Assembly: GCA_017623155.1 (NCBI GenBank)
Contig: JAGAPR010000064.1
Location: 1 to 36,290 of the forward strand
From: Prevotella sp.
GTDB lineage: Bacteria > Bacteroidota > Bacteroidia > Bacteroidales > Bacteroidaceae
Reading direction: 5' to 3'
DNA: 36,290 nucleotides
Part shown: positions 6,350 through 24,726 of the stretch, in pieces
Layout: the number at the start of each line of letters is the position of its first letter
How positions within the stretch are numbered: position 1 is the first letter of the stretch
The notes under the pieces: model-generated
Told to the model about the DNA's origin: nothing
What the model saw: the letters and a program-made list of their open reading frames with translations, nothing else
The model's database searches: none
Position numbers and translations under genes: made by a program

Positions 6350-6364
6350 AGGCGTCTAAAAGTG

Positions 6365-6462
6365 AAAAAGTAAAAAAGGTAAAAAAGCAAAAAGGTAAAA
6401 AAGCTGCGCTTAGAAATACGCTGCATGATTTTACCTTTTTGCTTTTTTACCTTTTTACTTTT
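6365..6462 (+). terminator. Long A/T-rich hairpin after the SLT-like gene
   Basis: The run 6365-6400, made of AAAAAGT/AAAAAGG/AAAAAGC blocks, is nearly the reverse complement of 6429-6462. The arms are about 34-36 bp around a 28-base loop. It can stop transcription from either side, but its length exceeds a usual terminator, so it may instead be a palindromic intergenic repeat. Confidence 0.55.
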
Positions 6463-6633
6463 AAACGGTTTTTTTGTGTTTAAATTTGTAAAAATCGCGG
6501 GGTAATTGTTAAAAGCAAAAGGTGCGACTTGAAGTCACCGTTTAGAAAAAGCCTAAAATTTTAATTGACATTTTTGTGTCATTATTTGTGGGTTGGGATG
6601 CAATTATTCGGGTTTGGGTATGCTTTTCGGGTG

Positions 6634-6868
6634 TTTTTGCTCTGCAATAAGGCCGTAATTGCATTGCATTTACGGCCTTATTGCGTTCCAATTACGGCCT
6701 AATTGGAATGCAATTACGGCCTAATTGGAAAACAGCACGACCCGCAAAGATGAGAAAAACGACAAAAATACCATGTAAGCAACTGGCAATCAACACTTTG
6801 TGCAAAGTCGCTCAAAACTCGCGTATTTCGGCCAAAATATTTTTTCGTGGCTAAAAATCGATTCTCAG
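6634..6868 (+). repeat. Dispersed non-coding repeat, copy A
   Basis: This 235-bp segment matches 24067-24300 in inverted orientation (234 bp). Both start with TTTTTGCYYTGCAATAAGG-like sequence, contain four GGCC-centred units (GGCC at 6651, 6674, 6696, 6718), diverge in the middle, and end with a shared block that includes CGCGTATTT and ends in CGATTCTCAG. The GGCC spacing is 23, 22, 22 bp in both copies. Its function is unknown. Confidence 0.8.
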
Positions 6869-7106
6869 AGGGCTTATTGTGGAAAAACGGCCAAATTTGT
6901 TAACAGTCGTTTGTGTATTTTAACGCGAAATATTCATGCGGCGGATTTCGGATGCCTGTTTGGAAATCGCTGTGATTAATCATAAAAATACGATAAAATA
7001 CTGATTAAACCTTAAAAAAATGCGGTAAGCTCGATGTTTAGCATTATTTTTGTAGAATGATATGTGCAGGCATTGCCTGTCGATATTAACAAAAAAAAGA
7101 ATTATT

Positions 7107-23957: not shown

Positions 23958-24005
23958 GGTGTTAAATGGCAGATGTCTTCCATCTAACATCTACCATTTA
24001 ACATC
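23958..24005 (+). terminator. Hairpin after the PurF-like gene
   Basis: GGTGTTAAATGGCAGATGT (23958-23976) pairs with ACATCTACCATTTAACATC (23987-24005) with G-T wobbles and a 10-base loop. A further ATGTTAGATGTTAG-type repetition around it suggests a duplicated palindromic element used as a terminator. Confidence 0.6.
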
Positions 24006-24066
24006 TTTCATGCTTTTTGGTTAAAGAAGCGTAAATAAATTGTCAAGATTTAATATGTTAACGTCG

Positions 24067-24300
24067 CTGAGAATCGATTCTTTTTCACGAAAAGTTTTTT
24101 TGGCGCAAATACGCGAAATATGACGCACTTTGCGTAAATGCTTGTATGCGAGACGGATACAAACATTTACGCTTTTTTTAGCCCTTTGAAAAAACGTCTT
24201 GTTTTCCAATAAGGCCGTAATTGCATTCCAATAAGGCCGTAATTGCACGACGGTTAGGCCGTAATTGGAATGCAATTACGGCCTTATTGCAAGGCAAAAA
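24067..24300 (-). repeat. Dispersed non-coding repeat, copy B
   Basis: Inverted counterpart of 6634-6868. Read on the minus strand, it starts TTTTTGCCTTGCAATAAGG, carries four GGCC units (plus-strand positions 24280, 24257, 24235, 24213; spacing 23, 22, 22) and ends CGATTCTCAG (24067-24076). The middle contains its own pair of GCATTTACG-type arms (TGCGTAAATGCTTGTATGCG near 24130 and the inverse near 24163), absent from copy A. Confidence 0.8.
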
Positions 24301-24726
24301 TGGACAAAAATGGGCAAAAGCGTATCGTGACAGTTAAGCAAGGTTAATCAAACTGTCTTATTGGTTAAATATTTTAAGTTAATAAAACCTACTTCGCGAA
24401 AACATTTTGTCGCGGGTTTTTACTTTTTGTTTACATCTTTTTGGTTAAATCAAAGATTGGAATGTTAAAAGAATGAGCCGGGCTGTGCCAAAATGCAAAT
24501 GAGGCGCAAAATATGTCCCTACATTGCGCAAGAACCTTATTTTGACACATCCTCCTATGGCAACATTTATTCCTGTTACGAATTCATCATCTGTTTTATC
24601 TCTCGAAACATCGGATGGGTCTGATATATAAATAAGGTGAAAGCAAAGAAAAGAATAAAAAAAAGTTAAATACCGACTTGTACAAAAACTTTTTACACTC
24701 GTTTTCTTTTTTTGTTACTTTTTAAC

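Follow-up and report, generated by a model that had tools for sequence, protein, structure and literature searches.

The closest described counterpart of the element analysed here is PINSR, a 188-bp intergenic repeat of Prevotella intermedia and Prevotella nigrescens (Naito et al. 2015, PMC4755523). According to the main text of that report, two P. intermedia strains carry 177 and 184 copies, the repeat is found downstream of tnaA and also in P. nigrescens, it is specific to one clade, and it has no terminal inverted repeats (PMC4755523). The internal order of PINSR is not noted in the passages drawn on here, and the terms '22-bp' and 'repeat unit' are absent from the main text. The second comparison is BrickBuilt, a MITE of Porphyromonas gingivalis consisting of a leader, 23-nt tandem repeats and a tail; as far as the accessible part of its description goes, it has 19 copies, 1 to 22.8 repeats and IS5-type terminal repeats (Klein et al. 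2015, PMC4596501).

The window, that is, the whole stretch of DNA analysed (36,290 nucleotides, contig JAGAPR010000064.1 of assembly GCA_017623155.1), belongs to the draft genome of an uncultured Prevotella (2,742,619 bases in 104 contigs, 83.8% complete), hereafter the source genome. It contains two copies of an element which, in the alignment of copies, is composed of a left arm, an array of short palindromic units and a right arm. The element is of the same kind as PINSR, being dispersed, non-coding, non-autonomous and intergenic, and the two are also alike in their many copies and common plan. It is not a copy of PINSR, which is ruled out by length and arms: the window element measures 445–471 bp against 188 bp and has other letters and other arms. 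With BrickBuilt, as presented in the same accessible part of its description, it shares the order of leader or arm, repeats and tail, the intergenic position and the long predicted hairpins, but its unit is 22 bp instead of 23 nt, four units are present in 101 of the 107 scored copies (112 loci minus 5 cut by a contig end), and its ends are different.

REP and BIME sequences of enterobacteria are dispersed intergenic palindromes that form small arrays and are linked to RAYT transposases; they differ from the window element in unit length and are not known to keep a fixed 22-bp pitch. Plasmid iterons are initiator-protein sites of about 22 bp arrayed on one helical face, but they occupy a single locus beside the rep gene, whereas the window element is found at about 100 dispersed loci. 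CRISPR was rejected, as the units are non-identical, the linkers are only 3 bp long and the loci number about 100. In the literature covered, mostly papers readable outside subscription, palindromes on a 22-bp pitch are nowhere described as a feature of Prevotella at large.

The two copies in the window

The earlier note had described a non-coding repeat in two colinear copies, at 6634–6868 on the forward strand and 24067–24300 on the reverse strand, with a diverged middle. The coordinates, the lengths (235 versus 234 bp) and the mutual inversion hold, 175 of 236 aligned columns being identical, and the middle is indeed the most diverged part, with an identity of 0.59 against 0.86 in the array part and 0.78 at the end. 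The limits of the repeat were nevertheless wrong, since homology extends past both of them and the full elements measure 445 and 471 bp. Copy 1 occupies 6479..6923 on the forward strand (445 bp; MAFFT alignment of 36 copies of subfamily A, the right limit being less sharp than the left). Copy 2 occupies 23998..24468 on the reverse strand (MAFFT alignment) and runs from TTAACAT to ATGTTAA over 471 bp, the length of subfamily B. In copy 1 the left arm and the array are A-type; the right arm is of another kind, carrying a ATCGATTCTCAG block and resembling loci L001 and L103. Neither copy overlaps a called gene, in line with the earlier note, which had seen no credible gene in them.

The palindromic units of copy 1 lie on the forward strand at 6644..6662 (orientation F, followed by linker ATT), 6666..6684 (R, linker GTT), 6688..6706 (R, linker AAT) and 6710..6728 (R). 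Those of copy 2 lie on the reverse strand at 24272..24290, 24250..24268 (with a diverged right half, TAACCGT), 24228..24246 and 24206..24224. The CGATTCTCAG end block is found at 6859..6868 (forward strand) in copy 1, within the right arm and not at its end, and at 24067..24076 (reverse strand) in copy 2. A spacing of 23-22-22 bp had been read from the GGCC centres, and it is present in both copies (6651, 6674, 6696 and 6718; 24283, 24260, 24238 and 24216). The value of 23 arises because unit 1 has the opposite orientation, however, and the period measured on the unit cores is 22-22-22. A fifth GGCC of copy 1, at 6830, lies beyond the array.

A dispersed family in the source genome

BLAST with copy 1 against the draft returned at least 80 matches (40 of 131 candidates scored). 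The first-unit pattern with up to three mismatches gave 168 and 161 matches, 329 in all (reversed control, 0). When the end block was lengthened by three letters to AATCGATTCTCAG and one mismatch was allowed, 37 matches were obtained (control, 0). Both results exceed chance. Array-bearing loci were read at 112 places in the draft, comprising 105 of the 106 loci of a first set (L101 has no array) and 7 more reached through the left arm; the chromosomal copy number may be lower, as two contig ends can hold halves of one copy, or higher, as a draft loses repeats. Subfamily A accounts for 52 and subfamily B for 41 of 105 copies, with 12 unsorted. Both ends were called in 29 non-A (B-type) copies, 21 of which span 469–472 bp from a TTAACAT-like start to TGTTAA; the other 8, of 420 to 520 bp, probably reflect wrong end calls in part. 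The B-type ends form a 7-bp inverted repeat (TTAACAT/ATGTTAA). By eye, no terminal inverted repeat is clear in A-type copies, and their right-arm module ending in ATTCTCAG appears inverted relative to B-type. The element is non-coding at high copy number, a weak called ORF overlapping 1 of 82 copies. A small non-autonomous dispersed element had been offered earlier as the alternative to a protein-binding array; it is supported by the 112 loci and by the near-constant length of those 21 of 29 B-type copies, and it is compatible with the protein-binding reading.

The many dispersed copies, the near-fixed length and the inverted repeat at the B ends also speak for a plain MITE-like selfish repeat, in which the array would be a passive hairpin-forming minisatellite and its pitch inherited or a by-product of copying. 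One strand folds strongly (DNA z −6.69; RNA z −2.72), and the leader, 23-nt repeats and tail of BrickBuilt, in the part of its description drawn on here, are a precedent (PMC4596501). Against this explanation, a check of 29 copies for flanking target-site duplications, which the earlier note had proposed, found none of 3 bp or longer (offsets −3 to 3, lengths 3–9; no combination in three or more copies, 8 of the 29 possibly having a wrong end). Moreover, none of the 7 further left-arm matches was a solo arm, every one of them being array-bearing. We regard such a purely selfish origin of the arrays as possible but doubtful.

The element probably breaks the assembly, since contigs C3, C21, C23, C26, C28, C39, C85, C90 and C93 of the source genome (G000) stop either inside an array or no more than about 100 bp from one. 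A second 22-bp array family is also present (contig C89; units like GTAACGATGTTACGTGGCC; L252:10892, L253:5218, L254:1925), and two further 22-bp array types occur once each in a 100-kb sample of the same genome (L250:13677, L251:18605).

Geometry of the array

The unit is a 19-bp imperfect palindrome with a 3-bp linker, usually repeated four times per array, and the spacing of adjacent units in the source genome is exactly 22 in 319 of 322 cases. Two, five and three units are found in L371, L032 and L094, respectively, the last being cut by a contig end; an extra core outside the 22-bp grid or at 44 in L022, L067 and L081 was taken as spurious. The prevailing unit orders are FRRR (55) and FRFR (46). 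In L371 and L032 the length of the array has shifted by whole units.

An exact pitch combined with free linker letters fits a row of dimers on one face of the helix, and hairpins would not demand it. We give an even chance to the reading in which a non-autonomous dispersed element carries, as its core, a docking array for a putative dimeric DNA-binding protein. A pitch of 22 bp, about two helical turns, would bring identical dimer sites onto the same side of the helix, and one such protein could fill the array side by side. Its specificity would shift between species, with the letters turning over and the pitch held, and in the source genome the array would have spread within an element mobilised by a putative trans-acting enzyme. 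The earlier proposal of a protein-binding array is compatible with the geometry. As a counterpoint, the pitch could also arise with no protein array at all, if the copying of the element involved a step that gauges 22 bp.

Adjacent inverted units are able to form long hairpins, and the arrays might act in transcripts as tandem UTR hairpins for RNA stability or for an RNA-binding protein. Hairpins should, however, tolerate changes of linker length, and none were seen; the junction pairs of Prevotella conceptionensis (TG 15, CG 14, CA 13 and TA 5, in a pattern-biased sample) show no clear pairing preference. At gathering score, Rfam 15 places no family on the element, the sole match in the window being a tRNA elsewhere; weaker hits fall far short of their gathering scores, the best (E 0.0013) reaching 30 of the 100 bits set for a microRNA family. 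A transcribed RNA element is in our view improbable.

The 22-bp pitch in other Prevotella genomes

The conserved TTGCANTGCAA junction was rejected as a genus-wide box, as two exact boxes were found in 0 of 150 genomes. The looser pattern GCAA..TTGC occurred in 44 of 150, but its reversed control matched several genomes too, with most of these matches in G058, where the control spells real arrays; the genome counts were therefore dropped as evidence and replaced by a lag scan, in which called genes were masked and a locus was counted wherever the sequence agreed with itself after a shift by the lag in question. The sample was made up of 20-kb stretches, 4–5 per genome for 11 genomes of the same genus, one from G100 and five from the source genome, the 12 other genomes totalling about 169 kb of non-coding DNA. 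Sampling was not blind: G061, G084, G176, G058, G053, G187 and G089 were picked for prior pattern matches, and the stretches of the last four lie on contigs most of which had known matches. G181, G016, G024 and G045 were picked as single-contig genomes without earlier matches, and G100 arbitrarily.

Across the 12 other genomes, 47 loci were counted at lag 22, 31 at lag 44 and 7 at lag 66, against 0 at both lag 21 and lag 23; lag 41 gave 11 (G181 and G016), and all the remaining lags from 10 to 69 gave at most 4. Lag 22 was present in 11 of the 12 genomes; it weighs against the docking-array reading that several of these have only 1–3 loci per 100 kb and that G176 gave 0. The five genomes not selected by matches contributed 13 of the 47 (G181 7, G016 1, G024 1, G045 3 and G100 1). 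Some genomes of the genus contain arrays of like plan in other letters; by eye, the unit letters differ between genomes, often with several types within one. Palindromy exceeded a unit-permuted null (mean complementarity 0.62 versus 0.47); of 67 arrays, source genome included, 49 had z values greater than 2 and 18 did not. The arrays of 41-bp period at L225–L229 (G181) and L233 (G016), which make up the 11 loci at lag 41, recall the 41-nt MITE464/PgRS of Porphyromonas gingivalis.

The clearest sign that length rather than sequence is held comes from G058. The core AAACG-NNN-CGTTT (at most one mismatch) is common to 19 of its arrays, with core distances of 22 in 43 of 46 cases and 44 in 3, and no two of the 43 linkers that separate neighbours at the shorter distance are identical. 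This diversity of linkers at constant distance counts against a plain MITE-like repeat, as does the recurrence of the pitch with other letters within and between genomes, for which recent descent of one element is insufficient. In G084, core distances are 22 in 28 of 33 cases and 44 in 3, and a scrambled core gave 0 arrays. In P. conceptionensis, the array pattern of that species was matched 176 times (control, 0), and its letter type was found 0 times in five other named genomes; core distances of this species (5 arrays, 3 of 5 distances at 22) were left out of account because the core had been poorly defined. In 100 kb of the second replicon of P. nigrescens FDAARGOS_1486, 5 lag-22 loci were counted, with 1 at lag 21 and 0 at lag 23; all 5 lie outside the listed genes of an incomplete gene table. 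Selection on geometry, suggested earlier from the two window copies, is well supported by the constant spacing in the source genome and in G058 and by lag 22 standing out alone against 21 and 23. Array flanks elsewhere are mostly unrelated (0 pairs among 8 arrays of G061 and 0 among 11 of G089), so that arrays are not as a rule carried within a long element.

PINSR-type repeats

A dispersed repeat of G084 and its sister G017 has 22-bp palindromic units in its middle. Its length between fixed end anchors was taken from 12 copies of G084 and 2 of G017, and 13 of these 14 measure 186 bp, or 188 bp with one base added on each side. In G084, a gene that passes the cut-off of the TnaA (tryptophanase) model has one copy about 230 bp downstream of it, as published for P. 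intermedia; at the counterpart locus of G017, L421, no copy was found within 1.4 kb downstream. The G084 repeat was also found at 9 places in one P. nigrescens record, with a best identity of 77.9%, and two P. nigrescens copies measure 186 bp by end anchors and have 22-bp units inside. In all likelihood G084 represents P. intermedia or one of its sister species, and its repeat is probably PINSR, judging by length, tnaA position and species. When the four source arms were compared with both arms of the PINSR-like locus L423 of G017, the scores were reached by 10 to 205 of 300 shuffles. The PINSR-type repeats at L431:20007-20193 and in G084 start with TTTGTAAA and end with TTTACA, a short imperfect inverted repeat, in contrast to the main text of the PINSR report, which gives none (PMC4755523).

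The 22-bp pitch suggests that PINSR, described as confined to one clade in the main text of its report, is one version of something genus-wide. We put forward, tentatively, that the genus has docking arrays of fixed 22-bp pitch, the letters of which would be rewritten in each lineage in co-evolution with a fast-changing protein, PINSR and the window element being two versions. Were this so, the system would parallel, in bacteria, satellite DNA and the proteins that bind it. If the arrays bind protein, they would give common bacteria an abundant level of control over chromosome or genes, and one that evolves fast. The pitch also suggests that spacing is conserved rather than sequence, in which case ordinary similarity searches would miss such arrays.

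Limits of the distribution and right-arm homology

Outside the genus, no lag-22 locus was found in 20 stretches (229 kb, 2 of them unreadable, genes unmasked), and a further 13 stretches (169 kb, 1 unreadable, 2 from G100) also gave 0. The latter set did contain one lag-44 array in G100; the lag-22 array of that genome came from the earlier stretch. These genomes are presumed to belong to other genera, given a tally (149 genomes, 60 genera) and because the genus lists do not include them. Forty-six loci around lemA from public records, scanned with genes unmasked, showed 4 loci at lag 22, fewer than the 5 at lag 21 and the 6 at lag 42; under these conditions the lag-22 peak is not distinct. 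The feature seems to centre on Prevotella sensu lato and may reach a neighbour genus. Two arrays of 23-bp period, the unit length of BrickBuilt, are present in G107, inferred to be of another genus (L388:8224 and 9624).

A phage or viral origin was rejected, as exact matches to the source array and to a G058 array numbered 0 each in IMG/VR and phage records had no match to the source element. Plasmids had none to a 5-kb stretch of the window. Three IMG/VR contigs bear the G084-type repeat.

The right-arm pattern [TC]CGC[GA][TA]ATTTGCG had 0 exact matches in the other-genome loci then collected. TCGCGTATTTGC with up to one mismatch gave 12 matches, of which only the G058 locus L109/L134 lies beside a visible array. 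The source right arms scored against L109 above all 300 shuffles, and against L147 their scores were reached by 1 of 300 shuffles (B arm) and 32 of 300 (A arm). For four of 17 P. conceptionensis copies the corresponding numbers out of 300 were 1, 41, 14 and 21 with the B arm and 36, 45, 173 and 0 with the A arm. Since 32 comparisons were made, right-arm homology across species is suggestive only. ATCGATTCTC, ten letters of the end block of the window, is present in all 17 aligned P. conceptionensis copies.

Gene context

Sixty-seven of 68 lag-22/44 arrays in 12 genomes of the genus, source included, are intergenic with respect to called genes. In the source genome, 77 of 82 testable copies lie between two genes according to a codon-model gene caller trained on that genome; 43 of the gaps are divergent, 30 tandem and 4 convergent, against 19, 71 and 17 of 107 background gaps. 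The enrichment of divergent gaps is strong (Fisher p ~1e-7), although few background gaps reach 300 bp (5 of 18 divergent), so that the excess may partly reflect gap length. With genes taken as the longest ORFs, divergent gaps are likewise the commonest (38 of 80). In the other genomes sampled this enrichment is absent; there, arrays lie closer to gene ends than to starts (medians 133 versus 248 bp), and convergent gaps hold 16 of 59 arrays against 30 of 203 among gaps of at least 200 bp (p 0.03). These last figures are what a transcription terminator or 3' end element would lead one to expect, but with so few convergent and so many divergent gaps in the source genome relative to its background, such a function is very improbable. 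About 100 sites, with no gene side favoured consistently across genomes, are less in keeping with a single regulon than with a role across the whole chromosome or with mobile DNA that is tolerated.

Copy 1 itself sits in the gap leading from an SLT-domain gene to lemA. The LemA protein of the window organism is 84% identical to that of a Prevotella MAG and 78% to that of Segatella buccae. Between the SLT-domain gene and copy 1, a long imperfect inverted repeat of the AAAAGGTAAAAAAGC type was noticed by eye at 6359-6462. Of 150 genomes, G187 is the closest in LemA; by eye, no array is seen upstream of its lemA, and the neighbour gene is another one. In another species, the SLT-lemA gap (L188, G053) holds a different array, with units of about 22 bp.
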